From IMG/VR virus record IMGVR_UViG_3300047281_000029, positions 1-64,000 of that record: 64,000 nucleotides of DNA; one strand, 5' to 3'. This document shows, piece after piece, positions 552-9,409 of this stretch. Source of the stretch: a virus. Positions within the stretch are counted from its first letter, which is position 1. Every line of letters starts with the position of its first letter. The notes under the pieces are model-generated. The model saw nothing but the letters and a program-made list of their open reading frames with translations, was not told where the DNA came from and did not search any database. Made by a program: the position numbers and the translations under genes.

Positions 552-997
<446 letters not shown>

Positions 998-1348: not shown

Positions 1349-1608
1349 AGTTCCCAAGTGTTAAGTTGTTTTACGTTTTGTTTTGTTAGTCCTAGTTCCT
1401 TTACAATAAACTTGGCTAGCTTCTTGTTGCCTATTGTACCTTCGTCTATCACGTTTGTTCCAATGTAACTTGCCACGTATGATGGCGGTGTGTTTAGTAC
1501 TCTATTGCAAAACTTTACGTCTTGACCTAGGAAGAATTGTTTTCTGTTGTACTCTAGTGTCCAGTTACGACCGAACCCGTACTCTCCTTGTGTGATAATT
1601 ACTCTCAT
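1336..1608 (-). CDS. Hypothetical protein, 90 aa
   Basis: Starts MRVIITQGEYGFGRNW. An in-frame extension upstream exists but runs through a tRNA-Leu-like gene and is rejected. This start is preceded by the AT-rich leader TTAATTAATAAC that also precedes several other minus-strand genes here. The protein has one Cys near residue 33 and an Ile/Lys-rich C-terminal half. I do not recognise the family. Confidence 0.65.
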   Translation of the reverse strand: MRVIITQGEYGFGRNWTLEYNRKQFFLGQDVKFCNRVLNTPPSYVASYIGTNVIDEGTIGNKKLAKFIVKELGLTKQNVKQLNTWELCAQ

Positions 1609-1631
1609 GTTATTAATTAATTTAAAGTTAG

Positions 1632-1772
1632 TGAAGAGGGCAGGACTCGAACCTGCACTATGATTTTTATCGAATCTTAAAAACATATTTACAATGACTG
1701 GATTTTTTATACTTAACTCCATAAGTTAAATCATATTAAGTATTTAGCGTCTTCCTTTTCCGCCACCTCTTC
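1632..1772 (-). tRNA. tRNA-Leu(UAA)-like gene with a 48-base insertion at the anticodon loop
   Basis: Read on the minus strand, a perfect 7-bp acceptor (GAAGAGG with CCTCTTC) encloses a leucine-type D arm (TGGCGGAA...GGAAGACGC) and a perfect T arm (GCAGG TTCGAGT CCTGC). The anticodon stem 5' strand AAATA and loop CTTAA give anticodon UAA. The matching 3' strand TGTTT, then a leucine-type variable arm (GATT with AATC), occurs only after about 48 extra bases. The insert is bounded by imperfect 12-13-base direct repeats (1677-1689 and 1726-1737) and holds its own hairpin (TTAACT with AGTTAA). Without it the tRNA would be 93 nt. It is far too short for a group I intron. It may be a processed insertion or a dead tRNA. 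Confidence 0.55.
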
Positions 1773-1777
1773 GTGTG

Positions 1778-1796
1778 CTAGCAGTTACTCTGCTAG
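1778..1796 (-). other. 7-bp hairpin between coding gene and tRNA-Leu
   Basis: CTAGCAG pairs perfectly with CTGCTAG around a 5-base loop that contains the stop codon of the 72-aa gene. It lies 6 bases before the tRNA-Leu acceptor. There is no U-run, so it is more likely a processing or RNA-stability element than a terminator. Confidence 0.4.
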
Positions 1797-2003
1797 TCTT
1801 TGTATTGTTAGGTTGGTGCTTGTTTTAATTCTCTCTAGCGTGTCCTCGTGCTTGTCCTCGAACCACTTCGGTACATCTACAACTACTAGGTAGTCGTTAA
1901 CTATCGTGTGCTCGAATGACTTCGGGATAAAGAACGGCTGACCACCATCGTCGATAGTCAGCGCGTTGTTAGATAGTTGTCTGCGGTATAGTTGTAGTGT
2001 CAT
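1785..2003 (-). CDS. Hypothetical protein, 72 aa
   Basis: Starts MTLQLYRRQLSNNALT at an ATGA overlap with the upstream gene. An alternative start 5 codons earlier (MGGNK) is possible. It has a compact beta-rich pattern (FFIPKSFEHTI, DYLVVVDVPKWF) and a helical C-terminus. No recognised family. Confidence 0.6.
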   Translation of the reverse strand: MTLQLYRRQLSNNALTIDDGGQPFFIPKSFEHTIVNDYLVVVDVPKWFEDKHEDTLERIKTSTNLTIQRLAE

Positions 2004-2248
2004 TTTATTTCCTCCCATTTTATAATTTTATTTGAGTCTGCTGGTATGTGGTCTCCTCCAAATCCGTGAGGCATTAACCTCCCGTTAAAACTTTGATATT
2101 CAGGTGGTATAGCAAAATTATTAAACAACTTATTATAAAAACCTCTCTTAGTTACTATCTCTTCTCGACTTTTACTTTGGTAATCTCCAAATCGTATTGT
2201 CTTTTTATACGTTATCATAACGTCTTCGTATGGATTAGGTAGTGTCAT
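2000..2248 (-). CDS. Hypothetical protein, 82 aa
   Basis: Starts MTLPNPYEDVMITYKK. The C-terminal half has aromatic and Gly/His-rich stretches (FNGRLMPHGFGGDHIP) and no recognisable domain. It overlaps the neighbours on both sides in single-codon fashion (ATG/stop), so it is part of a tightly coupled four-gene run from 2571 down to 1785. Confidence 0.6.
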   Translation of the reverse strand: MTLPNPYEDVMITYKKTIRFGDYQSKSREEIVTKRGFYNKLFNNFAIPPEYQSFNGRLMPHGFGGDHIPADSNKIIKWEEIK

Positions 2249-2571
2249 TATCTTATAAAGTATTGGTTATCAAACTTGTATCGTTGTCCGTTGAAGTTCT
2301 GTGCGTACACTAGCAGGTCGAACTGGTCTGTGCTTACCGCGATGCAGTTCTGTGTTAGTATCGTTGCCAGCTCTTCAATCTTCTTGATGAAGTGACTTGT
2401 CCTTGCGTATGGACTTTCTAACTCGACAATCAGAGTCGGTTCGTGCTCGTCCTCGTATCGTCCGATGCCGAACTTATACGTGTCGATGGTGTAGTCCTCT
2501 CTTAACTTGTTGATGATTGCCTCTTGGCTCAATGGGTTGTTGTTTAGTCCGATGTTTAAAATTGCTTTCAT
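2248..2571 (-). CDS. Hypothetical protein, 107 aa
   Basis: Starts MKAILNIGLNNNPLSQEAII after the shared AT-rich leader. Predicted alternating strands and helices with a final aromatic segment (YKFDNQYFIR). Similar small proteins with an N-terminal ILNIGLNN strand and a middle TLIVEL strand occur in other Bacteroidota phages as far as I recall. Function unknown. Confidence 0.6.
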   Translation of the reverse strand: MKAILNIGLNNNPLSQEAIINKLREDYTIDTYKFGIGRYEDEHEPTLIVELESPYARTSHFIKKIEELATILTQNCIAVSTDQFDLLVYAQNFNGQRYKFDNQYFIR

Positions 2572-2629
2572 GATAATTAATTAAAGTGTTTATAGGTTAC
2601 GTTTTTGTTGTCTCCGAATAGGAACTTGT

Positions 2630-2806
2630 TTATCTTGTTGTAGATTTTTGAGATGATTTTCGCCATAATGATTTGCCTTTTCTTAATATGTAATTTGATT
2701 GGTGCTTGTTTAGTCCGTGATGGCTTGCCCAGTTCGTTGCGCTTAGCCAGTTGTTTACGTAGTCTAGGTATAGACGTTCTATTTCGTTGTTGCTATGATA
2801 CTGCAT
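2630..2806 (-). CDS. Conserved small phage protein (DYVNNWL type), 58 aa
   Basis: A 58-codon frame, MQYHSNNEIERLYLDYVNNW onward, then a motif similar to the A-x-H-x-GL segment of a small helix-turn-helix-like family common in Bacteroidota phages (LYLDYVNNFL, xxAEHYGL). The C-terminus is basic. It starts inside the end of the 31-aa membrane peptide gene, a 14-base overlap. The sequence match makes it likely real despite its size. A DNA-binding role is only a guess. Confidence 0.6.
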   Translation of the reverse strand: MQYHSNNEIERLYLDYVNNWLSATNWASHHGLNKHQSNYILRKGKSLWRKSSQKSTTR

Positions 2807-2888
2807 ATGCTAGTAGATTAAAGATTACTATTACTAATACAATTGTTACCTGTAGGTATAGTCTACCTTGTTTTTGTGATTTTGTCAT
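2793..2888 (-). CDS. Small membrane peptide, 31 aa, downstream of hammerhead 1
   Basis: MTKSQKQGRLYLQVTIVL then an Ile/Val-rich helix, giving a short basic head and one transmembrane segment. The start is preceded by TTAATTAATAACATC, the AT-rich leader seen before other genes here. The hammerhead at 2907-2956 would cut 24 bases upstream of this start and create a short 5' end for its mRNA. Confidence 0.5.
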   Translation of the reverse strand: MTKSQKQGRLYLQVTIVLVIVIFNLLAYAVS

Positions 2889-2906
2889 GATGTTATTAAT
2901 TAAATT

Positions 2907-2956
2907 GGTTAAGACGCCTCTCGGCGTTTCGATCATTTAGATCTCATCAGTTAACC
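2907..2956 (-). ncRNA. Hammerhead ribozyme 1 (type I)
   Basis: Minus-strand RNA has every conserved hammerhead element. Stem I is GGTTAA/TTAACC and the core is CUGAUGA. Stem II is GATC/GATC with a 5-base loop, followed by GAAA. Stem III is ACGCC/GGCGU capped by a GAGA tetraloop, and the cleavage triplet is GUC. The open ends are in stem I (type I). Predicted cut: between plus-strand positions 2912 and 2913. It begins directly after the stop codon of the 115-aa gene and ends 18 bases before the start of the 31-aa peptide. Catalysis is inferred from sequence only. Confidence 0.9.
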
Positions 2957-3304
2957 TTAGTAATAGAAGATCTGAGGCAGGTTCTTCGTTTGCTCTCTTA
3001 GTATCTGTCTGTTTGAGTTGTTGTTTGCTATAGTTCCAGCGTCAACAAAGAATATTGCGTTATCATTAAAGCATCCTGTACTTAGTCCGCCGTTAGATAA
3101 ACAACTAGAGTAGCTTAGCTTCTGACAGAATCTTATTCCGTCTGCTATATATATTGCGTACACATCTTCCGTGTCATCAAAGAACGTGCACTCATCTTTA
3201 GAGTATAACTCTATTGTGCGTTTCCATGCGCTTGGATTGTAGTCGTTACGCTTGTGGTTGATTGCTTCTTCCTTTGTGATTTGTTTTGCTTGAATTGTTC
3301 TCAT
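2957..3304 (-). CDS. Hypothetical protein, 115 aa, between two hammerheads
   Basis: Starts MRTIQAKQITKEEAINHKRN. An N-terminal helical basic region is followed by an acidic strand region (FFDDTEDVYAIYIADG) and a Cys-containing stretch (SSCLSNGGLSTGCFND). No known family comes to mind. Its 5' leader is the 3' product of hammerhead 2, and hammerhead 1 starts at the base after its stop codon, so its mRNA would be excised as a single-gene unit. Confidence 0.6.
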   Translation of the reverse strand: MRTIQAKQITKEEAINHKRNDYNPSAWKRTIELYSKDECTFFDDTEDVYAIYIADGIRFCQKLSYSSCLSNGGLSTGCFNDNAIFFVDAGTIANNNSNRQILREQTKNLPQIFYY

Positions 3305-3322
3305 GATAATAAGTAATTAAAT

Positions 3323-3377
3323 GTTATAGACACACCCGATGGATGTGTTTCGACTATTGAAGTCTCGTCAGTATAAC
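3323..3377 (-). ncRNA. Hammerhead ribozyme 2 (type I)
   Basis: Stem I is GTTATA/TATAAC and the core is CUGACGA. Stem II is GACT/AGTC with loop TCAAT, then GAAA. Stem III has 8 pairs including A15.1-U16.1 (ACACATCC with GGGTGTGT, one G-U) and a 3-base loop. The cleavage triplet is GUC. Predicted cut: between plus positions 3328 and 3329. The first base of stem I is the last base of the stop codon of the upstream 75-aa gene. Fit to the consensus is complete and activity is inferred. Confidence 0.9.
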
Positions 3378-3604
3378 TATTTTAGTTTTGTTTTGATGAA
3401 CCAGTAGGCTCCCTGTATTCCTTCATCGTCAAGTTTAAATGATGCTGACTCAGAGACGCTATCTTCTGCCCATCCTGTGAAGTAGTATTTTATATCTATC
3501 TTGTTTACGTGTCCATGATAGTCTACAAACCATGTTTTGAATGTTGCTTGGTTTTGTTCTACTGCTACTGCTACTAATTCGAATAAATCTTTTAATGTTT
3601 TCAT
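3377..3604 (-). CDS. Hypothetical protein, 75 aa, between two hammerheads
   Basis: Starts MKTLKDLFELVAVAVEQNQA and contains a beta-rich segment with several aromatics (FKTWFVDYHGHVNKIDIKYY). Function unknown. It lies between hammerhead 3 (just upstream of its start) and hammerhead 2 (overlapping its stop codon by one base). The leader ATTAATTATTATC matches the AT-rich leaders of the neighbours. Confidence 0.6.
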   Translation of the reverse strand: MKTLKDLFELVAVAVEQNQATFKTWFVDYHGHVNKIDIKYYFTGWAEDSVSESASFKLDDEGIQGAYWFIKTKLK

Positions 3605-3617
3605 GATAATAATTAAT

Positions 3618-3672
3618 TAACGTTTCGTCGTTCTGCGACTCATCAGCATGGATAACACATCCATGTACGTTA
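3618..3672 (-). ncRNA. Hammerhead ribozyme 3 (type III)
   Basis: Here the open ends are in stem III (TAACGU pairing with ACGTTA) and stem I is closed: CATGGAT/ATCCATG, 7 bp, loop GTGTT. The core is CUGAUGA. Stem II is GTCG/CGAC with a 5-base loop, then GAAA. The cleavage triplet is GUA, with the predicted cut between plus positions 3665 and 3666. All invariant positions are present. It ends 13 bases before the start of the 75-aa gene and would separate the upstream leader RNA from the operon mRNA. Confidence 0.88.
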
Positions 3673-4030
3673 CACGTCTATCCCTATTTAGGTAGCTCGT
3701 GGTCCTCGGTTTCTACGCCAGAGTGGACTTACCCTATTTTATCCTGTTTTATCAGTCCGCCACTTTTTACATCTGTGGTCTCGATGGTTTGTTCGTTAGT
3801 GCAGGTGATTGATAGTTGATGTCTTTAGGATTGTAAAGCCTGTCTCGTCTCTTCCCTTTACTTTCACTGCCTCTCATTGGGTCAGGTAGGGATGAAGTTT
3901 CTAGTTTGCTATCCTGCTGATTATCAAGCAGTTAGAAGCTAACTTGCTGGAAATCAATCACTTACAATAAAATTAAGAACGTGTCGCTCATTTGAACACT
4001 GCAATAGTACGGCGGGTATTTCAATCCTGC
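3673..4030 (-). other. Gene-poor leader upstream of hammerhead 3, probably a structured RNA
   Basis: About 350 bases with no convincing protein gene apart from one short frame. On the minus strand it holds several hairpins, for example CAAGTTAG/CTAACTgCTTG (3925-3946), CTTTA/TAAAG, and a long-range AGTGG...CCACT pairing (about 3728-3765). A degenerate promoter box (TTTATTTG) lies near 4029-4036. The layout suggests an untranslated leader of the early minus operon that hammerhead 3 would release. I do not recognise an RNA class. Confidence 0.35.
3767..3877 (-). CDS. Possible 36-aa basic peptide (doubtful)
   Basis: An ATG frame reading MRGSESKGKRRDRLYNPKD, then a Pro/Ser-rich tail. The frame stays open upstream of this ATG for about 18 more codons without another usual start. 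It may be only chance coding in a structured leader RNA. Listed because it is the only candidate frame in this stretch. Confidence 0.2.
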   Translation of the reverse strand: MRGSESKGKRRDRLYNPKDINYQSPALTNKPSRPQM

Positions 4031-4410
4031 AAATAAAAATTAAAAAAAAATCACTTTTGTATGCATTTTTATGACATTCTCAGTGAATTGATTATTTTGA
4101 TGAGAATAATGCAACAGATTTGTGTTGATATTGAGGATTATGCAAGGAAATTGAACGAAGTTTGATTAACGTGTTGATTATCAGTGTTTTACGGATTGTA
4201 TTTGCTTACTATTGGATTTGATAGTGGTGGGATGGGGCTGGGGTTATTTCAAGTCTCTATATATCTGAGCACATATTTTTACGAATCGATGCATAAATAA
4301 TCCGATAAACCCAATAACAACAAGGTCTGACAAGGTATTTTCGTTCATTTTAATTCACTCTAGGATTGATTACGATAATCTCATGACGCGGGAAGTCCCG
4401 TCATTGCTGG
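4031..4410. other. Non-coding AT-rich stretch
   Basis: I see no gene in this stretch. It contains oligo-A/T runs near 4038-4060 and a short inverted pair around 4388-4401 (gacgcGGGAAGTCCCGtc). It lies between the leader of the minus operon and the TATGTCGA repeat cluster and belongs to the divergent control region. Confidence 0.4.
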
Positions 4411-4413
4411 GTT

Positions 4414-4677
4414 TATGTCGAGTTTTAGAAATTTATGTCGATTTTATGTCGAGTTTTTTGAGTTAACTAACTGATAATCAATAATCTATGTCGATATGTC
4501 GATTTTTACTATCCTAAATAGATTTAAAAAAAAATAATATATATATAAAAACGTATAGAGCCTATATAGGGATAACATTGACATTTCGACATAAATCAAG
4601 ACAAAGTCTTTATTGGTGTGGCCTAGCGCCATGACGCAACGAAAAAATCTTGTCATTTGTCGACATAAAACGACATA
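4414..4677. repeat. Cluster of TATGTCGA repeats in both orientations (origin or control region)
   Basis: TATGTCGA occurs at 4414-4421, 4434-4441, 4445-4452, 4487-4494 and 4495-4502 on the plus strand. It occurs on the minus strand at 4586-4593 and 4660-4667, with a one-base variant at 4670-4677. Most forward copies continue with TTTT or GTTTT. Between the two orientation groups is a very AT-rich stretch (about 4507-4552). Oriented repeats flanking an AT-rich core between divergent operons are typical of iteron-type origins or multi-site operators. Which of the two this is cannot be told from sequence. Confidence 0.6.
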
Positions 4678-4722
4678 GAACGTCATGGATTAGGCGCTTA
4701 AATAGATTAAGTTGTCATTTCG

Positions 4723-4730
4723 TATCTTTG
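4723..4730 (+). promoter_or_regulatory. Promoter -7 box TATCTTTG
   Basis: Matches the Bacteroidota TAnnTTTG box and lies 12 bases before the start of the Cys-motif protein gene. Confidence 0.55.
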
Positions 4731-4742
4731 CATAAACTAAAA

Positions 4743-4949
4743 ATGTATATTATGAAAGTATGTAGCAAGTGTAAAATTGAATTGGATTATGATTGTTTTA
4801 ATGTAGACAAGACTAAACTGGATGGACTACGTCCAGATTGTAACAAATGTAGAAAGCAAGTGACACAGAAGTATATTAGTACAGATGAATTCAAGGAAAG
4901 GAAAAAGGAATTGAATAGACTATATAGACTCGCTCATTCTGTCAAGTAA
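4743..4949 (+). CDS. Small zinc-finger-like protein (CxxC...CxxC), 68 aa
   Basis: Starts MYIMKVCSKCKIELD; a second ATG three codons later is equally possible. Two CxxC pairs (CSKC and CNKC, about 28 residues apart) flank an FNVDKTKLDGLRPDC segment, and the C-terminus is a basic helix. This is the pattern of a common small phage/HNH-associated zinc-binding family (CxxCkxxkxxxxFxxxxxxxDGLxxxCkxC). The catalytic HNH part is absent, so a nucleic-acid-binding role is more likely than cutting (inference). It is the first plus-strand gene after the repeat cluster. Confidence 0.6.
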   Translation: MYIMKVCSKCKIELDYDCFNVDKTKLDGLRPDCNKCRKQVTQKYISTDEFKERKKELNRLYRLAHSVK

Positions 4950-5189
4950 AAAAAGGGAACTATAGGTACGTATACGTGCGCGTATAGTAGTACGTGTATG
5001 CGTGTGATATAGTAGACACCTGCGTGTATGGGTAGGGCAGTCCAGAAAAAGCCAAAAATTCTCGGCAAGTCCAGTGAAATCGGTACCCCACCCTTGATTT
5101 TTAAGTCGTTTTCGTTTTGGCATCCCATCCGCAATATCTATATATAACCCACACACCACACATATCTAACATGTTCAATAAAAACCGGC
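4950..5189. other. Intergenic stretch with purine/pyrimidine-alternating hairpin
   Basis: No gene seen. Positions 4971-4986 form TATACG-tgcg-CGTATA, inside a wider ACTATA...TATAGT pairing (4960-4988), followed by TACGTGTATGCGTGTG-type alternating sequence. It may terminate or process the transcript of the preceding gene. There is no clear U-run. Confidence 0.35.
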
Positions 5190-6033: not shown

Positions 6034-6187
6034 CGATAAGCGTTTCGCGGTTAAACGGAAAAACACGCCGTGCGGAGTGACCTTCAGAGGTGGTCGATAA
6101 AGAACTCGAAACGTGATAGTACATGAAGCTCATGTTATAAGTAACTATCGAAGTGCGACTTAGGACGACGCTGTCTAAGTGGAATAA

Positions 6188-6256
6188 TACCGGTTGGTGT
6201 AATTGGTAACACGATGGTTGATCCATCAGATAAGGGTTCGAATCCCTTACCGGTAT
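6188..6256 (+). tRNA. tRNA-like gene with a shortened anticodon arm (Gln-like D arm)
   Basis: Perfect 7-bp acceptor (TACCGGT/ACCGGTA), D arm TGGTGTAATTGGTAACACG as in Bacteroidota tRNA-Gln, and perfect T arm (AAGGG TTCGAAT CCCTT). Between the D and T arms there are only 18 bases. They form ATGG-TTGAT-CCAT, a 4-bp stem with a 5-base loop, so the arm is about 4 bases short and the anticodon cannot be read reliably. The other arms are intact, so this is either a decayed tRNA or a tRNA with a deliberately altered anticodon loop. Confidence 0.5.
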
Positions 6257-7445: not shown

Positions 7446-9050
7446 ATGACAAACTTCGGATACAGTCCAAAGGTCCTAGACTTCGACAAGGAAGGTCAGG
7501 ACAAACTAATCAACGGCATCACCACGATTGCCAAGGCCGTAAAGAGCACGCTTGGACCGCGTGGAAAGACGGTACTAATCGAATCAGCTAACCATACTCA
7601 TGGAATTACAGTAACAAAGGACGGTGTAACGGTAGCTAAATCAATCGACCTATTAGATCCGGTAGAGAACCTAGCGGTAAAGATGATGAAGGAGGCCGCA
7701 GACCGAACCGCGACAAGCGCGGGTGACGGTACCACGACGGCTATCGTACTAACTGAAGCGTTTGTAAAGAACGGGGCAGACATAATCAAGGACAGCCTAA
7801 ACACTACAGAGGTGATTCGTCACATCAACAATACTACAAACGGTCTAATCAAGAGACTGGAGAAGCGTTCCAAGAAGGTAACTGGTAAGACGTTGAACAA
7901 CGTGGCGTCAATATCTGCTAACAACGACTCTGAGATTGGAGATTTAATATCGGATGCGTACAATAAGGTAGGTGACGATGGTATTGTTACGGTAGAGAAC
8001 TCTCAGACATCAGAGACGTACTGCGAATTTACTGACGGTATTAAGATCAACAGGGGGTACACGTCTCCATTGTTTGTGAACGACCACAGAAAGGACGAGT
8101 GCATTCTGGACGATGTGCATATTTTGGTTACGGATCAGGAGATTAATAACATCCTGTCAATTGAGAACGTGCTGAGAGATGTTATCTCAACAGGTAAAAA
8201 ACTGTTAATCATCGGGCCGTGCAGTCAGAACGTAATTAATACGCTGGCAATCAACGTGGTACAGAAGGGACTTAAGTTCTGTAACATCACCCCACCTGAG
8301 TTTGGTTACAAGCGTAACGAACTTATGAACGATATTGCCTTGGCAGTAGGTGCGAAGTACTTCTCGGAGCAGACCGGAGACGACTTAAGCTTGATGACAA
8401 TCGAGTCTTTAGGTAAGGCTAAGCGTGTTATCGTTGGAAGGGAGACGGCGTCTATTATAAAATCACCAGAGACTAGTGAGGCGGTAAGGGAACGAGTGAT
8501 TCAGTTATGGCAGGCACACGCGCTAAGCTCTAAAAAGAACGAGCAGGACTTTATCAAGGAAAGAATTGCCAGCTTAACAGGTGGAATCGCTGTAATTCAT
8601 GTGGGTGGAAACTCGGACCTGGAGCAGAAGGAACGCAAGGACCGTGTTGACGATGCAGTATGCGCGGTAAGATCTGCACTGGAGGAGGGCATTTTACCTG
8701 GTGGTGGAGTAGCCTTGTTCAATGAGTCGTATGCGATCATTGCAGATGCAGACGACATGATCGAGGACATCAGCGCTGAGCAGTACGCTGCGATGCATAT
8801 TGTGGCAAGATCGATCCAGGCACCACTACTACAGATATTTGAGAATGCAGGACTAGACGGATACGAGCTAATGGATGGACTACAAGGGTACACCATAGGA
8901 TTCGATATTAAGAAAATGCAGTCGGGGGACATGTACAAGATGGGAGTAATTGATCCATTAAAGGTAACGAAGAATGCGCTTAAGAACGCGGTGTCCGTAT
9001 CAACAACAATTTTGAGTACTAACGCAATTATAACAATGGCAAGAGCATAA
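7446..9050 (+). CDS. groEL: Phage chaperonin GroEL (60 kDa)
   Basis: A 534-residue group I chaperonin (host types about 545). Conserved equatorial motifs are intact: TLGPRGK (35-41), TKDGVTVAK (57-65), the ATP-phosphate motif AGDGTTTA (92-99), and EGILPGGGVAL near residue 415. IDPLKVTKNAL follows near the C-terminus. The apical domain is more divergent and the flexible GGM tail of host GroEL is missing, the protein ending TNAIITMARA. It would form an ATP-driven folding cage with a lid protein; the GroES-like gene lies 360 bases downstream. Phage chaperonins are known in some giant phages (EL, OBP). Likely clients are the capsid or giant tail proteins (inference). It has its own promoter and sits after a strong terminator. 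Confidence 0.97.
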   Translation: MTNFGYSPKVLDFDKEGQDKLINGITTIAKAVKSTLGPRGKTVLIESANHTHGITVTKDGVTVAKSIDLLDPVENLAVKMMKEAADRTATSAGDGTTTAIVLTEAFVKNGADIIKDSLNTTEVIRHINNTTNGLIKRLEKRSKKVTGKTLNNVASISANNDSEIGDLISDAYNKVGDDGIVTVENSQTSETYCEFTDGIKINRGYTSPLFVNDHRKDECILDDVHILVTDQEINNILSIENVLRDVISTGKKLLIIGPCSQNVINTLAINVVQKGLKFCNITPPEFGYKRNELMNDIALAVGAKYFSEQTGDDLSLMTIESLGKAKRVIVGRETASIIKSPETSEAVRERVIQLWQAHALSSKKNEQDFIKERIASLTGGIAVIHVGGNSDLEQKERKDRVDDAVCAVRSALEEGILPGGGVALFNESYAIIADADDMIEDISAEQYAAMHIVARSIQAPLLQIFENAGLDGYELMDGLQGYTIGFDIKKMQSGDMYKMGVIDPLKVTKNALKNAVSVSTTILSTNAIITMARA

Positions 9051-9409
9051 TGGAACAAGCAAGAATGAATTCATCAGGAACACTTACGTTTTCAGGTAGC
9101 AGTAACTCATCAATTTACGCTACAGGACTAACATATAATCCATCATCAAATATAGGAATGGGTGACCCAAACCCATCATTTAAATTCACAGTAACATCAA
9201 GTAAAATGAGACAAGTAAAGGCAGCACTATTCACAGTGACAAGAGATTCAAAAACAAACGAAATTATCGACTCTGAATTTGTAAAAGAGTTCTGGGTAAA
9301 GCAAAAACCAGGAGTTTCGTTTGATGTAGCAGCGTCACATGCTAACGGATACGCAATTGATCCAGACAAGGAAGTAATTAGAGAATTATTTAGCGTAAAT
9401 TTCTACTAG
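9050..9409 (+). CDS. Unknown protein between groEL and groES, 119 aa
   Basis: Starts MEQARMNSSGTLTFSGSSN, overlapping the groEL stop by one base. The first 50 residues are Ser/Thr/Gly/Asn rich, then come beta strands (FKFTVTSSKMRQVKAALFTV) and an EFWVKQKPGVSF segment. The composition suggests a beta-rich structural or virion protein. I do not recognise a family. Its position inside the chaperonin operon makes it a candidate folding client, or a protein needed at the same time. Confidence 0.7.
   Translation: MEQARMNSSGTLTFSGSSNSSIYATGLTYNPSSNIGMGDPNPSFKFTVTSSKMRQVKAALFTVTRDSKTNEIIDSEFVKEFWVKQKPGVSFDVAASHANGYAIDPDKEVIRELFSVNFY

Follow-up and report, generated by a model that had tools for sequence, protein, structure and literature searches.

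Three minus-strand elements in the genome of a flavobacterial phage are genuine hammerhead ribozymes, as judged by motif, conservation and covariation, and they are predicted to cleave. The best explanation of their arrangement is probably that they cut one operon transcript and that the purpose of cutting is insulation of the small genes in the slots that they border; we infer both the cleavage in the cell and the insulation. The DNA analysed (the window) comprises 64,000 bases of the IMG/VR virus record IMGVR_UViG_3300047281_000029, which is 65,012 bases long. Its terminase is 73.5% identical to that of the podovirus MW202828 and about 46% identical to those of Flavobacterium elemo phages.

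The window was searched with a strict descriptor covering orders I, II and III and demanding CUGANGA, a stem II of at least 3 bp, GAAA, a stem III of at least 3 bp, a UH cleavage position and a stem I of at least 4 bp. Exactly three matches are present, all on the minus strand and inside 766 bp; looser stem criteria add none, and the reversed window has none. The mean for dinucleotide-shuffled windows is 0.0375 matches over 80 shuffles and 0.0225 over 400. The initial annotation had described three minus-strand hammerheads with full cores and all stems paired, with expected cleavage sites at 2912/2913, 3328/3329 and 3665/3666 and with two of them at or on the preceding stop codon, and these descriptions are correct: each element has a complete CUGANGA/GAAA/NUH core with three paired helices, and for each the minimum-free-energy fold is the hammerhead. 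The elements, with their predicted cuts, are as follows.

2907–2956, minus strand: type I hammerhead; stems 6/4/4 bp, GUC, cut between 2913 and 2912; adjoins the gene B stop codon; 24 nt to the gene C ATG (2888).
3323–3377, minus strand: type I hammerhead; stems 6/4/7 bp, GUC, cut between 3329 and 3328; its first base is the last base of the gene A stop codon; 24 nt to the gene B ATG.
3618–3672, minus strand: type III hammerhead; stems 7–8/4/5 bp, GUA, cut between 3666 and 3665; 61 nt to the gene A ATG.

The covariance-model check that the initial annotation proposed gave a divided result: an Rfam scan of the window reports no hammerhead at gathering score, and a relaxed E-value yields sub-threshold hammerhead matches on all three elements. 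Element 3323–3377 matches RAGATH-1-hammerhead (RF03152) with 32.7 bits (gathering score 56.3), 2907–2956 matches HH9 (RF02275) with 27.1 bits (gathering score 52; E 2e-4), and 3618–3672 matches Hammerhead_3 (RF00008) with 19.7 bits (gathering score 48.5; E 0.28). The scanned relatives have none at gathering score either; homologues in one of them, L133, lie nearer the threshold (Hammerhead_3, 45.1 of 48.5 bits, E 9e-7; Hammerhead_1, RF00163, 31.9 of 34 bits, E 4e-4). The gathering score is a library threshold and no biochemical definition of a hammerhead; RAGATH-1-hammerhead, HH9, Hammerhead_1 and Hammerhead_3 all share their catalytic core and stem order with the window elements, which score below gathering.

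Read along the minus strand, the locus consists of a promoter-like site, a leader devoid of open reading frames, the type III element, gene A, a type I element, gene B, a second type I element, gene C and more small genes. The initial annotation placed all three ribozymes between genes; this holds for the two type I elements, and the type III element lies in the operon leader. The majority of the operon's genes lack a ribozyme.

4002–4033, minus strand: promoter-like site (4033–4002 in the direction of transcription), TTTG ... TACTATTG, the counterpart of TTG-N-TATGTTTG in relatives; identified by consensus match and alignment with relatives only.
3377–3604, minus strand: gene A, 75 aa, with no family match; a different gene occupies this place in most relatives.
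2957–3304, minus strand: gene B, 115 aa, for which neither a family match nor a viral relative was found.
2793–2888, minus strand: gene C, a 31-aa hydrophobic protein (MTKSQKQG...), kept in relatives downstream of the last slot.

A transcript from the promoter-like site would start near 3996. The start of gene C was taken from the relatives; the open reading frame lister starts it farther upstream, inside the ribozyme, and its cleavage-to-ATG distance was read off the sequence, the script having picked another reading frame. Gene B as a query against viral contigs found no relative, and comparison with Pfam and PHROGs assigned no function to the slot genes. Elsewhere in the window, a small 4Fe-4S ferredoxin-like protein (552–794, minus strand) is encoded within the same minus-strand gene block, and a phage-encoded GroEL lies at 7446–9050 on the plus strand; MW202828 and an elemo phage both have an annotated GroES-GroEL pair. 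At about 1625–1780 (minus strand) there is a tRNA-Leu/Ser-like sequence with a long insertion that ARAGORN and Rfam miss in the window; its counterpart in L132 (1307–1429, minus strand) was scored as a 123-nt tRNA match.

Eight viral contigs (L131–L138) were selected by a protein scan with the gene at 2248–2571, the ribozyme sequence being unused in the selection. A type III element heads the operon in the same place in all eight, and one or two type I elements are present in seven, L137 having none. L128, found via gene A, has the order type III, gene A, type I, and in an elemo phage a type III element precedes the first gene of its operon. Ten related loci together gave 24 descriptor matches, with none in the reversed sequence; a core-only search of the same stretches found few additional cores, one each in L134, L135 and L143. 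MW202828, the closest named relative, was dropped as a comparison genome, having no hammerheads. Since L137 is without type I elements and MW202828 without any hammerhead, the system is dispensable.

All three stems covary in both types, and the core and loop II are near-constant while the stems vary. In the type I alignment (13 distinct rows) 100% of cells are paired, double changes occur at 10 of 15 pairs, and the covariation score is 0.600, compared with 0.168 for shuffled and at most 0.085 for slid alignments; for type III, in which the misaligned L128 row was excluded from the pair count, double changes occur at 8 of 17 pairs and the score is 0.424 (0.153 shuffled). In L128, stem III of the type III element is weak and a different fold is predicted for the element. 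With regard to a possible tertiary contact between the loops of stems I and II, loop II always reads CAGAA in the type III set, and UNANU in that of type I, between stems that vary. These values are informative because L131–L138 were picked by protein rather than by ribozyme, with the reservation that the elements were recognised by a descriptor that itself demands pairing.

The leader upstream of the type III element spans 3666–3996 on the minus strand of the window, is unannotated, and has homologues in other phages.

3666–3788, minus strand: structured leader RNA module with two inferred pseudoknots and a hairpin, immediately preceding the type III cleavage site, identified by homologues and covariation.
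L007:7133–7282, L132:3692–3825, L133:3866–4010 and L138:4141–4263: leader homologues directly before a type III hammerhead.
L142:12531–12652, L210:10700–10822 and L222:7102–7223: leader homologues directly before a type III hammerhead.

This leader family, designated X, is present in the window, L132, L133, L138, elemo, L142, L210 and L222, and partly in L134; its head also occurs in L135, L139, L152 and L258. The head has the form N4-GAGA-CCAC-A-N4'-...-GUGG-CGG. When all leader variants are analysed together RNAalifold returns almost no structure, because the leader modules are mosaic, and the fold of the whole leader is no better than those of shuffles (z -0.25); the pseudoknot stems were therefore chosen by eye and then shuffle-tested. 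The N4 arms of the head covary (31 of 36 pairs; 19.9 shuffled), as does a second stem, for example GUCC/GGAC, in all variants (24 of 24; 16.5 shuffled), this test being indicative only since the stems were picked beforehand. The leader RNA has no match in Rfam. Among the matches of an IMG/VR scan with a leader-motif pattern, 111 of 115 are due to chance, and every match with the rest of the motif precedes a type III hammerhead.

These data raise the possibility that the type III ribozyme serves mainly to generate a 3' end for the leader, which would be a phage noncoding RNA in its own right, with trimming of the mRNA incidental. The covarying pseudoknot stems and the presence of a type III hammerhead after every verified family X head are what such an RNA would lead one to expect, and release of the leader by the ribozyme is predicted under either reading. 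Against this, different leaders (Y, Z and that of L128) occupy the same slot in relatives, as in L131/L136/L137/L143 and L135/L139, so that no single RNA goes with the ribozyme, and a stable released RNA would have to be assumed. We regard this account of the type III element as having perhaps a minority chance of being correct.

The genes between the ribozymes turn over. Those first after the type III element (slot 1) belong to 12 unrelated families among 14 loci; a gene about 1 kb downstream is 90–97% identical to that of the window in seven of the eight protein-selected contigs. From phage to phage, one and the same type I sequence is followed by different genes. The gene A homologues of L129 and L130 are not accompanied by a ribozyme, and the ribozyme thus belongs to the locus and not to the gene. 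The slot genes (3377–3604 and 2957–3304 in the window, and those of L131–L143) are small orphan genes in a hypervariable slot between conserved ribozymes, and could be early host-takeover or anti-defence genes.

The position of the elements relative to the genes is nearly constant. In the related loci the leader from cleavage site to ATG is 19–26 nt for type I and 58–64 nt for type III, and the type I elements overlap or abut a stop codon. A wider type I set was obtained with a pattern near the type I element, which matched at least 119 stretches in IMG/VR; the matches listed include 113 new contigs and 156 testable type I elements. Among these matches the cleavage-to-ATG distance is 15–39 nt in 93% of the 156 elements, with a mode of 20–24 nt; random sites give 12%, and CTGAYGA sites outside hammerheads 20%. 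Of the type I elements among the matches listed, about 87% overlap or abut a stop codon (20% in the control), a figure that is inflated because GGUUAA and CUGAUGA contain stop triplets. The type I leaders are 76% A+T, and a Shine-Dalgarno-like motif is found in 25 of 153 among the matches listed; scarcity of such motifs is expected under Bacteroidetes-type initiation. The core pattern matches at least 120 stretches in IMG/VR, and among the matches listed 69 have at least one complete hammerhead and 22 have two or more. Other arrays were also seen: a different phage, L144, has three type III hammerheads (6150–6201, 8150–8201 and 9151–9201, minus strand), each behind a GUGUCUUUAAAGACAC hairpin after a gene, and in one viral contig, L111, about 3.6 kb (1568–5185, minus strand) contains six hammerheads of type II.

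Gene turnover bears on a further reading, in which the hammerheads are mainly short DNA homology joints for the swapping of accessory genes and RNA cleavage is secondary. Near-identical type I elements do stand before different genes across phages, and the slot genes are exchanged; but covarying stems with a fixed core are not required by DNA homology, and the constant spacing from the ATG speaks for a function in RNA, making this reading unlikely. We give the same low standing to the ribozymes being regulated switches, which would respond to a ligand, a protein or a ribosome that terminates at the stop codon embedded in them and so turn the downstream genes on or off. The stop codon lies within stem I or the core of most type I elements, where a terminating ribosome would block folding; by covering the core it might slow cleavage. 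The elements are nevertheless minimal (50–66 nt), with short, near-constant loops and no aptamer-like insertion. That they are inactive relics or chance hairpins, as their sub-threshold Rfam scores could suggest, is very improbable given their perfect cores, compensatory changes, conserved position and a chance expectation of 0.02–0.04. A retrozyme or circular-RNA origin is not favoured either, the elements sitting between protein genes.

We therefore return to processing of one operon transcript as the probable role, a reading that draws on the motif, conservation, covariation, position and gene turnover observed here. From a transcript beginning near 3996, the type III cut would remove the structured leader RNA and give the gene A mRNA a 5'-OH end with its first bases in the stem I hairpin. 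Each type I cut would fall just past a gene, so that the 3' end of the upstream mRNA would carry the hairpins of stems II and III, and the gene that follows would start with a 24-nt AU-rich leader. The predicted products are the leader RNA, gene A with a 5'-OH hairpin and 3' hairpins, gene B likewise with a 24-nt leader, and a remainder that is a polycistron. Any slot gene would in this way gain a defined 5' end, uncoupled from translation of its neighbour, and the constant leader length and location of the stop codon suggest such uncoupling. The proposal in the initial annotation that the RNA is cut into single-gene units applies, as a prediction, to slot genes A and B; because the last product would remain polycistronic, the division into single genes would not extend over the whole RNA.

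The initial annotation also knew of no described case of this arrangement. That claim fails: clusters of hammerheads flanking individual prophage genes, with gene identities that are not constant, were published in 2011, and processing into gene-length mRNAs was proposed for them (Perreault et al. 2011; PMC3088659). The window array belongs to these known clustered phage hammerheads. The broader suggestion of the initial annotation, ribozyme-based operon processing, survives as the best-supported reading through conservation, covariation and fixed stop and start distances, with cleavage predicted, while the novelty attached to it does not. Tandem phage arrays cleave in vitro, and a triple array around ardA of Agrobacterium tumefaciens cleaves in E. 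coli; the function of the phage clusters was left open in that report (PMC3088659). As in those clusters, several hammerheads here (three in 766 bp around genes A and B) flank single genes of a phage operon, and gene identities vary. The present case differs in that one locus, known from its sequence, is tracked across related flavobacterial phages, and in having a type III element in its leader and type I elements between its genes, with a stop codon in or against the ribozyme and constant leader lengths. The window array contributes an orthologous series, a fixed geometry, a III-I-I order and an associated leader RNA; among the open-licence literature we found no paper on any of these.

Two other systems offer comparisons. 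RiboJ, an engineered insulator derived from the sTRSV type III hammerhead, normalises the 5' UTR (PMC7536230), and in E. coli it raises transcript about 2-fold and protein 2–10-fold (PMC6206723). Like RiboJ, the window's type III element sits in a 5' UTR, where its cleavage would strip off the leader upstream and place a structured 5'-OH end ahead of the ribosome binding site; RiboJ is engineered with an added 23-nt hairpin, whereas the window element is natural and combined with downstream type I elements (PMC6206723, PMC7536230). The hammerhead variant upstream of the helicase gene of haloviruses HF1 and HF2 is likewise in a lytic virus, just before the start codon of a polycistron, but is a single element with a variant core in an archaeal host (PMC3088659).

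In 68 Flavobacterium elemo phage records there is DNA resembling the type III element together with a portion of its leader, with an intact type III element verified in one. The elemo phages are a cultured system, in which infected cells could show whether cleavage takes place and how it affects expression. The orthologous series separates what is kept, the ribozymes and their spacing, from what changes, the genes, and so points to insulation. More tentatively, and with somewhat less than even confidence, we suggest that this is a hypervariable accessory-gene locus whose slots are bounded by conserved hammerheads at fixed distances from stop and start codons, such that unrelated genes may be exchanged without disturbing their neighbours, and whose first ribozyme would also free an undescribed pseudoknotted noncoding RNA.
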